Assembly: GCF_000378005.1 (NCBI RefSeq)
Contig: NZ_KB899040.1
Coordinates: forward strand, 733,645 to 797,644
Source of the DNA: Coprothermobacter platensis DSM 11748
GTDB lineage: Bacteria > Coprothermobacterota > Coprothermobacteria > Coprothermobacterales > Coprothermobacteraceae
Direction: 5' to 3'
DNA: 64,000 nucleotides
Shown: in pieces, positions 41,251-51,245 of the stretch
Layout of the letters: every line of letters starts with the position of its first letter
Numbering within the stretch: the first letter of the stretch is position 1
Position numbers and translations under genes: made by a program
The notes under the pieces: generated by a model
What the model was told of the DNA's origin: nothing
The model's database searches: none
What the model saw: the letters and a program-made list of their open reading frames with translations, nothing else

Positions 41251-44200
41251 TCATTCTATGATAAAGTCTTCTTCCTTGTAGATACCGGTTCCTGCGGGTA
41301 TCCTCCGAGCTATTATAACATTTTCTTTCAAACCTTTTAGCTTATCAACTTTCCCAGCTATGGCTGCGTCAACGAGAACCTGAGGAGTTTCCTGGAACGA
41401 GGCGGCTGCGAGCCAACTCTTAGAAGATTTGGATACTTTTGTCACGCCCATGCATACCCTGCGTCCCTTTGGCGCCTTCTTACCTTGCATAGTCCAGTAC
41501 CTAACTTCTTGCTCATAATCAAACCAGTCAACAACATCACCTGGAAGCATTTCCACAGAATCACCTGATTCGTCAACAACAACCTTGGAGAACATTTGCT
41601 TTAAGACCACTTCGAAATGCTTGTCATTGATTTCAACCTTTTGAGAAGCATAAACACTCTTGATCTCACCTATGAGATAATCGCAAGCAGCGTCGTGTCC
41701 AAAAGCTCTAAGCAATAATGAAGCATCAATACTGTCGAAAATCAGCCTATAACCAGGGAATATGTATTTTGATTCCTTGTCATCATTGCGAATTCTTAAC
41801 TTCCTAGATTCAGCGTTCGTTACAAATGCGCCATAACCATTGTCCTGTTTTACAACGATTATGGTAAAGAGTTCTTGCCCGTGATCGACTACGGTGAAGA
41901 TGTCGTGAACAACACCACCCATCGGTGCCATAGCCAACAACTTGCTTTTCTTTGTGGGACGTTTTGCGTCTATGTCGAATGCAAAATCCACATCACCAGT
42001 ACGCATTAAATCTACATAGCCTGCATAGAAATTCTTTAGATCTGCTTCATCGGCTCCTTTAATTCCTGTTGCTAAACCTACGTACCATGGAACTATGGAA
42101 AGCTCCGAACGTAAGGTCGTAAGAACGTTATTGAGTTTCTCGTGGAAATGTCCACTTAAAGATCCAATATGTTCTTCTAAGCTTGCTTTCCTTAAAGCGT
42201 CAAGGAATAAGCGTTCGAATTCACTGGCTTTTTGATCTAACAAATCATAAAGCTGTTCAACCTTTTCATTGGATCTTCTCAATGCGCTCAATTCAAGACC
42301 ATTCCAGTCATAACTTTGAAGTAGCTCGTGCCTAATTTCACTAAGTTTTTGGCTAAGCAGCGCTCCAAGATCGTTGAACCAGGTCCTAACAACTTTCTTC
42401 AGATCTTTGGCTGCCATAGGATCGTTCACATCATTTAAGTGAGCTTTCAAAACGTTATCCAACTCACCAACAAAAGACTCCATGGCATTAGATACATAAC
42501 GTTCTATCTTTTCGTCAGCGCCATCAAATACTGTAAAGAAATCCTGCAATGGGAGAACTATATCAGTCAGTGCATTTTTCTTCCTTGCCTCAAATAATTC
42601 TTCTACACGTGGTAAACCTCCAGTAATATCTTCGCCAGCGACACCTCCAGTGTGGAATGTTCTTAGAGTAAGCTGGGTACCTGGTTCGCCAATAGACTGT
42701 GCAGCTACTACACCAACACTTTCTCCTTTTTCTACGAGTCTTCTTCTGGATAAATCTCTACCATAGCACGTAACACAAATACCATCATCACTTAAGCATG
42801 TTATAGGACTATGTATACGAACAGCTTTCACACCAGCTTTGTCTATGCGTTGTGCATCCTGTGCCATGATCTCTTGCCCTGCTTTTACCAGAATTTCTCC
42901 AGTGGCAGGATCTTTTATATCTTCAGCAGCAAAACGACCCCAGATACGCCCTCCGAGCTCAGAAATTATGCTACCGTCTGTAGCTTCAAGGTCTCGTACA
43001 AGCAAGCCCTCTTCTCTTTTTACAATGAGCTCCTCAACGCCCAATTCCTTGAGCCTGTAAGCTAAAGAGGGTGCGACATTTGTCCCTTTGTCGATGACTT
43101 CGTTGCCAATACGCAACTCACCAGGCAATACAAATCGGGCATGGTTCAAACCGTAGACAAAGTTATCCGGATCAAGCAAATCTTCGATCCTTACGAGTTC
43201 CATGTCTCTTCTTATAAGAACTTCGATACCAGCTTCTGCAATGAGTTGTGCCTCTTCTAAACCAATAACCTGCCCTTTACGTACCACTGGGTCATCCATG
43301 CCTGGCAACCTGATATCTTCCTCTGCAAAACGACCTACCAAAGCTGTGGCAACGTTGTCATAGGTATTTGGACCAACGCTGACCACAGAGTGGTCATCCT
43401 CAGTGATCGTAACCGACTGCACAACATCCACCAAACGTCGTGTGAGGTAACCAGCATCAGCAGTTTTCAGCGCTGTATCAGCCTGTCCTTTACGAGCACC
43501 GTGTGTACTTACAAAATACTCTTGTATTGTTAGACCTTCCAGCAATGAGTCGATAATAGGATACTCAATGATTTTACCTGTCGGGTCAGCCATAAGGCCT
43601 CTTAAACCTACCAATTGTCTTACCTGGTCTTTGTTTCCTCTGGCGCCAGATGTGAACATCATATAGAGATGGTCAGACTCACTAAAATAATCGTTGAGAC
43701 TATCAGTGACCTTATCCACTACATCGCGCCAAATGTTAACTATTTTTTCATAACGTTCTTCCACAGTGAGTCTACCGAAGTTGTACTCTTCTTCTATTTT
43801 CTCGATTTTCTCCCGAGCTTCATCTACTAAGCCTTGTTTAGAAGGTACAACACTCAGGTCAAGTGCACTTATGGTCAAACCGGACAATGTTGCATACTTA
43901 AAGCCCAGCTCTTTTATTGCATCCAGTACATATATGGAGTCACTCAAACCCAACCGATCGATAGCATCATTGATGTAGTTATAAAGCGTTTTCTTTGTTA
44001 GTGTTTCATTTACGAAGGGCAATGTTTGAATGCCGTTTTCTGTTAACCGTTCGTTTATAAAGTGATTAAAAATCACACGTCCTACTGTTGTATTGCCATT
44101 CTTATCCGCATTGGTAATATCTTGACCGATGTCGCCATTGGTCTCAGCTAATGGGCCGTACCAAATGTGAGCATGCAAGTCTATCTTGCCCATATTCCAA

Positions 44201-47200
44201 GCTTTCTCTACATCCGCAGCGTCATAGAATACAGTGCCATCACCTATAAATGGTCCCTGTAGATCCACTGTTAGGAAATAAGGTCCAATGACTAAATCTT
44301 GTGTTGGAGCTGCCAACGGCTCGCCATGAGCAGGTGACAGTATGTTCAAATGCGAAGACATCAGCAATTTTGCCTCAGCCAAAGCCTGATTAGAAAGTGG
44401 CACATGTACTGCCATTTGGTCACCATCGAAGTCTGCGTTGAAAGGCGGACAAATCATAGGTGGTACCGATATGGCTTTTGAATCAACTAACACAGGCTCA
44501 AATGCTTCTATTGATGGCCTGTGCAGCGTAGGCGCACGGTTCAACAGAACATAATAACCTTTTACAATATCTGCCAAGACTGGCCAGATACGAGAATCGT
44601 AACTCTCAATCATCTTCTTAGCCTGTTTAGCTGTACTCGCAATTTCACGGCGTTGCAGTTCGCCTATGAGCATAGGCTTAAATAATTCTGCTGCCATTAT
44701 TCGTGGTATTCCTGTTTGGTTCAGCTTTAGATCCGGCCCGATCACGATGACAGAACGCCCACTGTAATCAACTCTTTTACCGAGCAAATTCTGTCTGAAT
44801 CGACCTTGTTTCCCGCTAAGTTTGTCAGTAAGTGACTTTAACTGCCTTCCTCTTGAGTCCTTCACAGGTTTGTCTTTTCTACTGTTGTCTATAAGTGCTT
44901 CAACAGCCTCCTGTAAAAGCCTCATTTCGTTTCGGATAATAAGATCCGGAGCTTTTTGTTCTCTAAGCCTTTTCAGTCTCAGATTTCTATTGATGATTCT
45001 TCTGTAAAGTTCATTCAAATCTGAAGATTTTGCTCTCTCATTTTTGTCGAAAATGAGTGGCCTTAAGTCTGGGGGCAAAACAGGTAAAACTTCCAAAACC
45101 ATCCATGAAGGATTCGTTTTACTTCTCAAGAAACCGTTAATAACTTGTAAACGCTTCGTTATCTTTTGTTTCCGTTGTCCCGTTGCTTCGTCAAGCTGTT
45201 CCACTAAATAGCTGACCCAATCTTGTAACTTATCTGGACTGTAGTTTTCTTCCAGTAGTTCCTTTATGGCAGCTCCACCGGTTAACGTTTCCAACAGCGG
45301 CTGCTCATTTCTAAGTATTTCTACATCCATGAGCAAACGATACGCTTCTGCCTCTTCATCACTGAGTAAATCTAAAGCATTCACGCGTGGTGCTACAAAA
45401 GATGTAGAAACCACAAGTTCTTGACTTATCGTTTTAAGTAGTTCTTCGCCATCATCAATCTCAAGTTTATTGAATACTTCCATGGCAAAAGTGTTATCGC
45501 GTATAAAGGCTTCACTCAGAAGAAGCGTAATAATCTGCCAAACTTGTTCTTGAGAGATGGGTCTCAAACTGCGTACTAATCTCAAATCATAGCCTGTAAC
45601 AACTAAATCAGAGTTTTCCTCTAAGTCAGCTCCAAAAACGTGTTTTATTATTTGAAGCGCTCTATCTTTATCATCATTGATGAGAATCTCATAATCTTGC
45701 ACTCGGTCAAGTAAACGGGTCACATCCTTAAGAACCATGGAACAAGCATTGCGAAGTACGTCTTCCATGCTTTGGCCTTCTCTGGGCATAACACTGAAAT
45801 AACCAAAGTTATTGATAACTTCATACCCACCGCCGAGCACTTTATCTATATCTATGTCTTCGAGGCTAAGAGATTTCAAGATAAAGCGAACATCATCTTC
45901 AATAAGGGGACGTTGTTCATCCCATGAAAGGTTACGCTGGTCCAGTACTTCACGAATTTTCTGAACTTCTACAACAAGGTTCTCTAAAGCTAAACCCAAA
46001 CCTCTTGACATTACTTTGTACTTGTTTACTTCGCCCTCTTTGGTTACCGCTTCTGCTCTGTAATAAGGAACCACAGCATAGGCGCCAGAAATGATCTTAG
46101 AAAGTACGTTTTCAAAATCTCCTGTACCCAGAGCAACGCTAATCATCTTACCGAGAAGATATTGCTTATCTGCATTATCAGCAGCAGCCGCAGCTTTACT
46201 TAATAAATCACTACGTTTTAGATTGAATGCTTCAAAGATTTCCGATGCCCAATGGGACATAAAGTTTGAACCGGAAAAATTCTCACCCTTACTATAAAGC
46301 TCAAGTGTTTCTTCAAACGAGAGCCATTTTCCCTTAAAAAACACCGGCTCCTTCAAGCACTGCATAAATTCATCTTTTGTTAAATGCCTTCCAGTAACCA
46401 CAGGGTTACCGGCTATGCGCCTAATATCAGTTGGGAATTTTTCAAGCTGTTCGCCAACGAAGTCCAAGAGAGACTGTTCATGAGCTACCAACGTTGTTAT
46501 ACCTTTTACGCCACTAAGCACATGTTCTTGTTCATTGGGCAAGAGCATCAAATACTGCTCAGGCGTAACGAGCTCAAAGCCCTCTTCACCAAACAAGACA
46601 TAAGCACTGTTTTTCCAAATATCCCTTACAACATCAATAGGTACATCGTACGATTGAGATATTAACTCGTTAAGACGTCTTATAACGTAACTCGCAGTTT
46701 TATAGGTAGAAAGCTGAGTATAAGTTCTTATGTTTTCGGAAAGTAGACCGTAAATATCTCCCAGTACAGCCTCAAGCAAAAGAAGACCAGAGCTAAAATC
46801 TGGAGAACCAGCCAATTCTAACCTATCTGTGGGAATCCCTTGAACATCTGCCACAGATTGGAATATCAGTTTCTGACCAAGGAACCAGAAAGAAAAATCA
46901 AGTGCACGTTCACTGGTCATCACGGTAAGTCTCGGTAAGACGTCTGGACCCGTATCTGTAGCCAAGTTAGAAGTGTAATAGATAACCCTTTCTAGATCTT
47001 TCTGCTTCATATCGACCATGAAACCTAACCTTGACTGTGCGTTTCTAAAGAACCAGGGGTGCACTATGGGTGTACCAAGCTCAATATGACCCATCCGTTC
47101 TCTACGTACAGAACTGCGGGTAACTTCTACACCACAACGTTCACAAACTTGTCCCTCGTACTTTCGTCCTTTGTATTTCCCACAAGCGCATTCGTAATCA

Positions 47201-47355
47201 CGTGTGGGCCCGAATATTTTTTCACAAAACAGACCATCCGGTTCAGGTCTGTTCGTTCTATAGTTAACTGTTTCGCTCTTTTTAACTTCTCCATGGGACA
47301 TTGCCCTTATTTCATCAGGAGACGCCAATCTCACTCTTAGGGCATCAAAATCCAT
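41251..47355 (-). CDS. rpoC: RNA polymerase beta-prime subunit, greatly enlarged
   Basis: Beta-prime carries the catalytic magnesium site. At about 2034 residues it far exceeds B. subtilis (about 1200) and E. coli (1407). Core landmarks are intact: zinc ribbon C56, C58, C71, C74; active-site NADFDGD with D975, D977, D979; bridge and trigger-loop motifs ([20 protein letters not shown]); and second zinc-site cysteines in [11 protein letters not shown]. Three regions are expanded: about 560 residues between 131 and 690, a triplicated module at about 1341-1520, and about 200 extra helical residues between FEARKK (R1591) and INDKH (I1909). The E. coli-type SI3 insert is absent. The first ligand of zinc site 2 is His (H1322) where Cys is usual. 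ATG at 47355 preferred, GTG at 47367 possible; just after rpoB. Confidence 0.97.
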
Positions 47356-47363
47356 ACCTTGCC

Positions 47364-50300
47364 TCACTCCTCTTCAGTGGTGAACTTCGGTAGAGACACA
47401 CCAGGTATCTCCAAAGCCTTTTCTTTTTTCTCCGTTTCCACTTTCTCGACCATGAATCCCAAGGATTTCAGTTCAAGTTCAAGTACCTTAAACGATTCAG
47501 GCAGTTGAGGTGGTTCCAATGGTTGATTGCGCGTTAAAGAAATATAAGCTTTCTTTCTCCCTTCAACATCATCGGATTTGACTGTGAGCATTTCCTGAAG
47601 AACATAGCTGGCACCATAGGCTTCTAATGCCCAAACTTCCATTTCTCCAAGCCTCTGGCCACCAAAATGCGCTCTTCCTCCAAGCGGCTGCTGTGTAACC
47701 AGTGCATAGTCGCCAGTAGAACGCGCATGCCATTTGTCTTCAACCATGTGAATTAACTTCATCATGTACATATAACCAACAGTTATTTCAGAAAGGAATT
47801 CTTCTCCTGTTCTGCCATCGCGGAGAACTACCTTCCCGTCTTCTGGAAGTCCTGCCTCTTTTAATAAATCATGAACACCATCCACGCCAAGCTTGCTAAA
47901 GATAGGAACTTCCACTTTAAACCCAAGCACCTTTGCAGCTAATCCCAGATGAAGTTCTAAAAGCTGTCCAATATTCATCCTTGAAGGAACACCCAGCGGG
48001 TTCAAAACAATATCTACAGGTCTACCATCAGGAAGGAAAGGCATATCCTCTTCCGGTAAAACACGGGACACAACACCTTTGTTTCCGTGCCTTCCTGACA
48101 TCTTGTCACCTGCTTGAACCTTCCTCTTTTGAGCAACGAAAACCTTAACAGCTTTTATTTTGCCTGTTTCACTACTACGAAGAACTTGAGTATCAACAAC
48201 AATTCCACCTTCCGCCGGTGGCACTCTTAAGGATGTATCTTTTACTTTATCTAACTTCTCACCAAAAATTGCACTTAATAGCTTTGTTTCAATAGACTTA
48301 TCTTCTTCCTCTTTTGGTGTGACTTTTCCCACAAGAATATCTCCAGGCTTAACCTCCGTACCCACCATCACAATACCCGTATCAGGATCAAGATACTTCT
48401 TTTCTTGTTCCGATACGGAATCTGGTAAGTCGTAGGTTATTTCCTCTGATCTACCTCTACTTAATTCGGCCACTTCCACCATATACTCGCGAATATGTAC
48501 AGATGTGAATACATCATCTTTAACTAAACGTTTACTTATCAGTATGGCATCCTCGTAGTTATACCCTTCCCAAGGCATAAATGCAACCAAGATATTGCGT
48601 CCTAATGCCAACTCTCCACCATCAGAAGTTATTGATTCTGCAAGTACGTCACCTTGCTTAATAGTCTGGCCTTGCTTTACTTTAGGTCTGAAATGTATAA
48701 CTGTATCCTGATTTGTCCTATCAAAAACGCGTAATTTGTAAACTTTTTCGTAGCCATCTTTTGTAGCCAAACGAACTTCCTTGCCATCTACGTAGGAAAT
48801 CGTACCATCTTGCTCCGCCCGTATAACATAACCTAAAGACTGAACAACTTCTTTTTCCATGCCTGTGGCCACAATAGGTGACTCCGCATTAATAAGCGGC
48901 ACTGCTTGCCTTTGCATGTTAGATCCCATTAGTGCTCTTATGGCGTCATCGGATTCAAGAAATGGCACTAAAGAAGCCGATATGGAGAAGGGTTGCGTCA
49001 CATTTACATCCATAAAAGTTATATCTTCTTTGTCGACCTCAACCCATTGCCCTTTATGACGAGCCAATATGCGATCAGGAGCGATGTTTCTTCCCTCCAT
49101 GGGAGTGTCAGCTGGAATAATATATTCTTTTTCTTCTTCCAAAGCATCCATCCATATAACGTCATCTGTGACTTGTCCCTTAACCACACGTCGATATGGC
49201 GTTATCAAGAAACCATACTCATTCAAGCGAGAATAGGTTGCCAATGAAAGGATTAATCCTATGTTCTGACCTTCTGGCGTCTCTATAGGGCACAAACGTC
49301 CGTAGTGCGTATGGTGGACATCTCTTACTTCAATACTTGCATGCTCTCTGCTAAGTCCACCTCTGCCCATAGCTGTTACGCGTCGCTTGTGGGTAATTTC
49401 AGTCAACGGGTTAGTATATTCCAGTAATTGATGTACCTCAGATGGGTTTACAAAGCGCCAAACAAACTGTGTCAATATGTTTTGCGCAAGCACTCTGTGA
49501 AGCTTTAACTCTGGTTCTTTCTGTTCGTTAATCATTTCATCACGAGCCGTTTTTACGAGCCTTTCAAAAGCACTTGCAAAAATTTCATAATAAAGCTCAC
49601 CTATGGCGCGAACACGCCTATTGCTCAAGTGGTCTATGTCATCCGGCATTGCCGCTCCAATAGAATAAGCCAGCAATATGCCACCAAGTTCGGCGAGCAT
49701 TTCATCGGTGAGAGATTCCTCCACCTTTATGCCGTACCTGTGTTCTATGTGGTATGCACCCACACGACCTATTTGATTACGTTTAGGATCAAATAGAAGT
49801 TGTCTAAAGCGCCTTTCAGCTTCCCTATCGGAGAGTGTTTCTGCTGTTCTTCTCTTTTCTAATTCAACAAAAGCACTTCCTTGAAAATACTTCTTCACAG
49901 GTACTTGAAGAGTTATAAAGTCAGAATTCTTCCTTATGTTCTTAACGATTTCAGGATCCAGTGCTTCACCTTTCAGGCTTTGCCCGTCGACTTCAATATC
50001 TTCATCAATAATCCATCCCTCATATGTCTTCATCTGACCCCTAACGGGAACTTTTACACGTAAATCGTACTTTCCAGACTTAACCATGGGAATGACGTAT
50101 GATTTAAATAAAGTCTCGACATCCCTTGTGCTGAGAGGTGTATTAGCTCGCACAACCACGGTTCCATCTTTGTCTAATACGTCTTCGATTAATTCTGTTT
50201 CGCGTAATGTAGAGACAATTTGATCCCACACAGTGGAAACCGTATATATGTTTACGGAAGTATCACCGTCTATAGTCTTGTCTATCAAAATTTTTAAATT

Positions 50301-51245
50301 TTCTTCAACAATACTCTTGAATATGTCCAGTATTTCAAGCCCCTCATATTGAGAAGCGTAAGATTCCGCTATTTCGTCTAAAACACTTTCTACGTTGTAT
50401 TCTTCAAGCCTTTCCAATAACTGCTCATCAACGCCGAGATTCTCCAGAGTGTTCTTGAATTCACTTACAGTTTGAGCAGTAGTAGGCAGATAACCACGCA
50501 AATAATTGAAATAAGAAAGAAGGTTTTGAGTAACAAAGTTCTTCTTGTTATCGAATGAAGCATCCGTTAAGAAAAACTCTGTCCACTTCAACGCACTTTC
50601 ATTAAAACGCGCCCTTATCTCGTCATCAGACATGTATCCGAGAGCTCTCAGATATGTTGCCATATTGAGCTTTTTAGAACGCCTATCAAGAATCATATTA
50701 AGTGGGTTTTTGCCATCATATTCAATATCTATCCACGTTCCGCGCTGTGGAATAAGAGATATCCGCTTAAGTCCTCCGTCAGCTTCAAGATATATGCCTG
50801 GAGATCTAACTAATTGATTCAATGTCACTCTTCTTGAGCCATTTACAATGAAGTCGCCTGAATCAGTCATCCATGGTATTCTCTTCCCCAAGACGTGTTC
50901 TTTTTCCACGATTTCCCCTGTTTCGCTATTGTAGATACGAACCTTTACTACAAGCCTTTTTGCAAATGTGGCATGCTCTCTAATAGCGTCTTCAGGAGTT
51001 TCTATGGGGTTACCCGTTTCATCAGCTACATCATTCTCAAAATAGAAATCCAATATGTCAATGCGCCAACGTCCCTTACTATCTTCGATAGGAAAATATG
51101 TCTGAAACAGCTCCCGCAAACCTTCGTTGATGAACCAGTTCCAGGAATTCTTTTTTGCTTCTAAAAAATCTGGGTAAGGAACTTCGCTTAGCGTTGGCTT
51201 ACTTACTTTGCTGCTGACTTCCCATATTTTTTTTCTGGCAGTCAA
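47364..51245 (-). CDS. rpoB: RNA polymerase beta subunit
   Basis: Beta forms one pincer and the rifampicin pocket of RNA polymerase. The 1293-residue protein has [14 protein letters not shown], the fork-loop region [43 protein letters not shown] and the C-terminal [18 protein letters not shown]. In the rifampicin region, positions matching E. coli D516 and S531 are Glu and Thr here. TTG start at 51245 with GGAGGG 10 bases upstream; a nearby ATG is out of frame. A clear promoter lies at 51280-51308. rplJ and rplL, normally just upstream, are not here. Confidence 0.97.

Follow-up and report, generated by a model that had tools for sequence, protein, structure and literature searches.

A large lineage-specific insertion mapping to the clamp tip of the RNA polymerase beta-prime subunit in Coprothermobacter

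The beta-prime subunit of RNA polymerase encoded by Coprothermobacter platensis DSM 11748 contains an in-frame insertion of ~520 residues that maps to the small clamp-tip subdomain. The insertion was very probably acquired independently and only once, in the ancestor of the order, and its length changed later (~520 residues in the Coprothermobacteraceae and ~320 residues in a sister family). That it is a lineage-specific clamp-tip module is well supported; more tentatively, we favour that it acts as an acidic protein-binding arm, which may influence how the clamp closes or how factors dock. Among the machines of gene expression, RNA polymerase is the most conserved.

Position and extent of the insertion

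The window, i.e. the whole stretch of 64,000 nucleotides that was analysed, contains an intact rpoC open reading frame (41251-47367, minus strand), which encodes 2038 aa from a GTG; an ATG at residue 5 is the likelier start. Residue numbers given here count from the GTG, while those of the preliminary description counted from the ATG four codons on. The product matches the rpoC model TIGR02386 with 1347 bits, and the gene order in this genome of 1.42 Mb is the usual one, with rpoB directly before rpoC and ribosomal protein genes and fusA after it. The relevant features are as follows:

46966-47355, minus strand: conserved N-terminal core up to YYTSN, residues 5-134; first piece of PF04997, 99% identical to the relative G001 (insert 75%)
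45379-46950, minus strand: lineage-specific insertion, residues 140-663, 524 aa, net charge -28; edges uncertain by ~8 residues
46216-46950, minus strand: N-terminal part of the insert, residues 140-384; first ~185 residues common to the sister family (f2); model pLDDT mostly 27-65
45448-46215, minus strand: C-terminal helical domain of the insert, residues 385-640; model pLDDT 80
45280-45378, minus strand: second half of the host subdomain (beta-prime bD2/sLC), residues 664-696; spliced alignment and insert-free profile
41932-42579, minus strand: second lineage-specific insertion, in the jaw, residues 1597-1812; in the Coprothermobacteraceae (f1) and f2

The insertion splits the Pfam N-terminal beta-prime domain (PF04997) in two. 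In the beta-prime alignment, 562 residues lie between the end of YYTSN (residue 134) and GGAAIKELL (residue 697), compared to 34-40 residues in insert-free beta-prime proteins. The preliminary description had reported an insertion of 560 residues near the N terminus of beta-prime; as a distance between these two landmarks this figure holds, whereas the net insert amounts to ~520 residues, since from residue 664 on the sequence is again that of the host domain (its second half). We estimate that the insert proper comprises ~515-525 residues, from residue 140/148 to residue 661/663 (window 45379-46950).

In a search of PDB sequences, the spliced flanks of the insert aligned end to end with B. 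subtilis beta-prime (6wvj_D, residues 129-242), and in the spliced-flank alignment the 13 residues from the re-entry point at residue 664 paired with B. subtilis LLSEKEYRAYLDK. A profile of 30 insert-free sequences placed the re-entry at the same position in f1 and f2 with probabilities of only 14% and 19%; such low values are expected since the segment is only ~20 residues long. In total, these alignments place the insert in the small clamp-tip subdomain, referred to as bD2 or sLC, in the loop that joins the first strand to the LLSxEEY helix. bD2 is among the beta-prime insertion sites that have been named (PMC11515920).

Distribution of the insertion and other unusual parts of the polymerase

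The clamp insert is present in frame in 5/5 genomes of Coprothermobacteraceae (f1) examined, with 55-76% identity, and an assembly or frameshift artefact is therefore excluded. Both genomes of the sister family f2 (G005/G006) encode a segment of 345 residues at the same site, while f3, a third family of the phylum and a more distant one, has no insert, with 35 residues at this site in its two genomes. The f1 and f2 inserts are homologous over their first 185 residues (BLASTP E 1e-9, 23% identity): this alignment reached 45.4 bits versus a maximum of 23.9 bits in 200 shuffles, and the two insert profiles matched each other with an HHalign probability of 91% (E 1.1e-6). In a tree of the beta-prime core, f1 and f2 form a clade with a support of 1.00, and f3 is placed beside them with a support of only 0.56. 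The simplest reading is that the ancestor of the order gained the insert once, and that it later grew in f1 or was shortened in f2.

Among 386 bacterial genomes from 325 genera, the profile of the f1 and f2 inserts only matched those seven genomes. Moreover, no significant match to the insert was detected in Pfam, NCBIfam, PHROGs, PDB sequences, IMG/VR viral contigs or phages, in agreement with the preliminary description, in which no domain had been recognised. In searches of contigs, a single-sequence query gave no match and an alignment query returned three contigs, all of Coprothermobacteraceae. A second or free-standing copy of the insert was not found in the host genome. Finally, the G+C content of the insert (0.41) is close to that of the core (0.43-0.44) and, thus, gives no strong sign of a recent foreign origin.

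The second insertion, helical-looking and ~215 residues long, immediately follows VEELFEAR in the jaw; other bacteria have ~18 residues at this point. It is homologous between f1 and f2 (E 2e-8), absent in f3 and without a convincing match in the 386 genomes. Because the clamp and jaw inserts mark one clade, they count as one event and not as a correlation. The jaw insertion point is not obviously among the seven sites listed in PMC11515920.

We also observed other unusual parts in these polymerases. Extra BEAN-like copies lie beside the core BEAN domain bD5 (window 42796-43386, minus strand, residues 1328-1524); compared to the core BEAN profile, residues 1328-1392 scored 99% (E 5.5e-20) and residues 1400-1458 scored 80% (E 1.4e-5). 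In the f2 beta-prime proteins, which evolve fast, the usual 10-residue motif before the jaw insert has been lost, and f2 has two unusually long sigma factors, with open frames of 603 and 590 aa. In rpoB (window 47364-51245, minus strand, 1293 aa), approximately residues 200-470 are poorly matched and Pfam Rpb2_2 matches best at residues 474-546; the poorly matched stretch is probably a lobe insertion.

Predicted structure and possible role of the insert

Structure prediction of the insert alone, as proposed in the preliminary description, was successful in part. Using AlphaFold2 as the single predictor on an alignment of four sequences from which the f2 rows were left out, the whole insert was modelled poorly (pLDDT 52), with low confidence for residues 130-384 (mostly 27-65 across residues 140-384). 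By contrast, a fair model was obtained for residues 385-640 (pLDDT 80.1, pTM 0.78), which are predicted to be mostly helical; two long strands span residues 430-442 and 586-599. The earlier reading of a large clamp insert without a recognised domain is supported, and its largely helical nature is seen in this part.

Foldseek searches with the model of residues 385-640 gave no significant match in the PDB (best E 0.55) or in BFVD (best E 0.56). Using VIA-align, the same model matched best to a designed helical protein (Z 6.6) and to part of a crAss-like phage RNA polymerase (Z 6.3), both below the level that is meaningful for helical proteins, while the whole-insert model with its pLDDT of 52 just matched helical bundles of common types (best Z 6.1). 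Given the shallow alignment and the single predictor, we go no further than to say that the fold may be novel. The model also hints at a recurring helix-hairpin-helix unit; however, comparisons of segment versus segment only reached HHalign probabilities of 11-22%, and we make no claim of internal repeats. Similarly, the sLC profile matches at the true re-entry point and at no segment of the insert.

Anchored in the clamp-tip loop of bD2/sLC, the insert would extend outwards where the main DNA cleft opens. Here, the insert, being acidic rather than basic, would contact proteins, namely sigma, some accessory factor or the jaw insert that these lineages also have, and such contacts would affect how the clamp closes and how DNA is loaded, a role like that proposed for beta-prime i1. 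The preliminary description had suggested that the insert could bind a factor or DNA; the net charge of -28 over 524 residues (-5.3 per 100 residues, compared to +2.2 per 100 for the core before it and -3.0 per 100 for the core after it, residues 664-1596) favours a protein partner over DNA. Because the N-terminal half of the insert gave no confident model, its direction of projection is deduced by comparison with other species: the mycobacterial i1 leaves the clamp tip and passes over the opening of the active-site cleft, to which it brings a charged face, and it was proposed to compete with DNA loading (PMC5511352). In total, the anchor in the same loop, the acidity and the sequence constraint described below lead us to favour an arm that contacts proteins where the cleft opens. 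That such an arm acts through these contacts on clamp closure and DNA loading is drawn by analogy, and we hold this mechanism with considerable reserve.

The alternative that survives best, although we consider it rather unlikely, is that the insert serves to dock sigma or a lineage-specific factor of elongation, recycling or termination, without acting directly on DNA loading. The Thermus i2 has a role in sigma-A binding (PMC5511352), the NCD region is the contact site for the recycling factor HelD in mycobacterial HelD complexes (PMC7749160), and in f2 a different insert goes together with larger sigma factors (603 aa versus 369-419 aa), all of which are consistent with docking; however, the partner would be a putative one, and the f1 sigma-A looks ordinary in length.

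The clamp tip and the jaw flank the downstream DNA on its two sides, and contact between the two inserts is therefore possible. A new fold in the clamp could even form, together with the jaw insert, a second and order-specific gate round the downstream DNA entrance. If true, elements of the largest subunit itself would control how DNA is loaded into this polymerase. This bolder idea is quite unlikely. For the favoured mechanism, too, both charge and the co-occurrence with the jaw insert are weak guides.

The acidity could also point to a DNA-mimicking gate, in which part of the insert would occupy or guard the cleft until promoter DNA enters, as sigma region 1.1 does elsewhere, and the best weak match of the insert in both Pfam and the PDB is Arn of phage T4, which is a DNA mimic. 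The Arn scores (Pfam E 0.0047-0.024 for the f1 members, 16.8 bits versus a cut-off of 26; PDB profile E 0.049) are, however, all below the curated cut-off and come from one 45-residue motif in closely related sequences; this motif is absent from f2, and Arn was not among the Foldseek matches. Moreover, acidity is shared by the beta-prime core (residues 664-1596, as above), and the f1 sigma-A keeps an N-terminal segment resembling region 1.1. We consider a DNA-mimicking gate improbable. Because of this region-1.1-like N terminus, the related idea that the insert substitutes for a lost sigma region 1.1 is without support.

A neutral expansion without a function, tolerated because it loops out of the enzyme, would account for the faster evolution of the insert compared to the core (75% versus 88-99% identity) and for the length difference between f1 and f2. 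However, dN/dS of the insert is 0.09 (G001-G002), 0.04 (G001-G003) and 0.045 (G002-G003), compared to 0.00-0.02 for core beta-prime segments of the same close relatives. Moreover, many insert columns, including W, G, P and charged positions, are invariant across homologues down to 55% identity, and the f1 inserts have few indels. The insert changes faster than the core and yet is clearly under purifying selection, making a neutral expansion highly improbable.

Comparison with known beta-prime insertions

The insert belongs to a known kind of lineage-specific beta-prime insertion, being in frame between conserved blocks, confined to one lineage and located at the known site bD2/sLC. According to the preliminary description, Thermus and Thermotoga have a domain at this place; this is correct for the subdomain but not for the exact position, since their insertions enter ~20 residues later, after the LLSxEEY helix. 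We extracted the segments at this site from 23 other beta-prime proteins with extra length there. L048 is the Thermus segment, with 324/324 residues matching 1iw7 and most residues matching 2auj, the solved isolated domain; the segments L081 (319 aa) and L049 (185 aa) are Thermotogota-like by sequence. Thermus and Thermotogota-like segments start with the complete sLC strand-loop-LLSxEEY helix (91% and 90%), implying that they are inserted after this helix, while the Coprothermobacter insert precedes it.

Kinship with the Thermus/Thermotoga non-conserved domain (beta-prime i2; sandwich-barrel hybrid or HABAS), from which the insert would have diverged, is suggested by the nearly identical position in the protein and by the grouping of Coprothermobacterota with Thermotogae and Thermus in the DST group, which is noted for its insertional diversity (PMC11515920). 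However, while the Thermus and Thermotogota-like inserts match each other (HHalign 81%, E 1.2e-5), the Coprothermobacter insert profile matches neither with a probability above 20%, with few sequences per profile, and sub-segments of the insert compared to Thermus, Thermotogota-like, HABAS and BEAN profiles all remained at or below 12%; the full-length match to the Thermotoga domain that would have made the insert an ordinary family member was not found. In addition to the different entry point, the modelled residues 385-640 are helical while the Thermus domain consists of five sandwich-barrel motifs (PMC5511352), and the beta-prime tree places Coprothermobacter away from both Thermus and Thermotogota. 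We judge this kinship to be very improbable. An intein or other mobile element has a negligible chance, although inteins typically form large insertions, in frame, within essential and conserved genes: the insert is inherited vertically within one order, with no splice pattern bounded by Cys/Ser/Thr at its edges, no match to intein/Hint-type, homing-endonuclease or transposase models in Pfam and NCBIfam, and no free-standing copy in the genome or in phages.

Other lineages also have large, apparently helical segments at this beta-prime site, i.e. L075 (428 aa), L074 (282 aa), L072/L088 (216-223 aa) and L078/L083 (271-273 aa), and by HHalign these groups match neither each other nor any other group. 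The clamp-tip site appears from these sequences to be a hotspot that has been filled many times. The ~520-residue insert is the largest at the clamp tip among the ~38 beta-prime proteins aligned, and as a thermophile with a small genome Coprothermobacter offers a polymerase that is a reasonable target for structure determination. By profile comparison, the module appears unrelated to every family tested, while a bD2 insertion as such is already known, and the Coprothermobacter architecture may already be listed in supplementary Table S4 of PMC11515920.

A BEAN or HABAS identity of the insert was rejected: core beta-prime BEAN profiles reach at most 12% on any segment, compared to 99% for the second BEAN copy in the same protein, and HABAS profiles gave no significant match (at most 12%). 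The Type 2 BEAN insertion of Dehalococcoides (PMC11515920) shares the host subdomain bD2 with the insert and has ~70 residues.

The Deinococcus-Thermus i2, or NCD1 (1iw7, 2auj; residues 164-449), is likewise large, lineage-specific and located in the same small subdomain; it differs from the Coprothermobacter insert by its entry after the LLSxEEY helix and its all-beta sandwich-barrel hybrid motifs, and the two have no profile match. The Thermotogota-like insert, also in this subdomain, is kin to the Thermus domain and not to the Coprothermobacter insert. Cyanobacterial Si3 (645 residues; PMC10802570) is likewise a very large lineage-specific beta-prime insertion, and the Coprothermobacter insert is comparable to it in size; however, Si3 is located in the trigger loop and folds into 8-9 SBHM/HABAS domains (PMC10802570). 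Unlike Si3 and the Thermus domain, the Coprothermobacter insert is, as far as tested and judged by its model, not made of the usual barrel domains.

The actinobacterial i1 is closest in position. It is a two-helix insertion of ~90 residues at 140-230 (PMC5511352), and in M. tuberculosis the LIVDENLYREL helix starts immediately behind i1, at approximately residue 235, as located with a query fragment that matched the deposited chain at 100%. Thus, i1 and the Coprothermobacter insert both occupy the clamp-tip loop before the LLSxEEY helix, and both are helical and lineage-restricted; unlike the i1 hairpin, the Coprothermobacter insert is nearly six times longer, with several helices and strands, and it has no significant similarity to PDB chains, including mycobacterial beta-prime. 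The same clamp loop was, thus, filled independently by unrelated segments in Actinobacteria and Coprothermobacter, one helix away from the site used in Thermus and Thermotoga.
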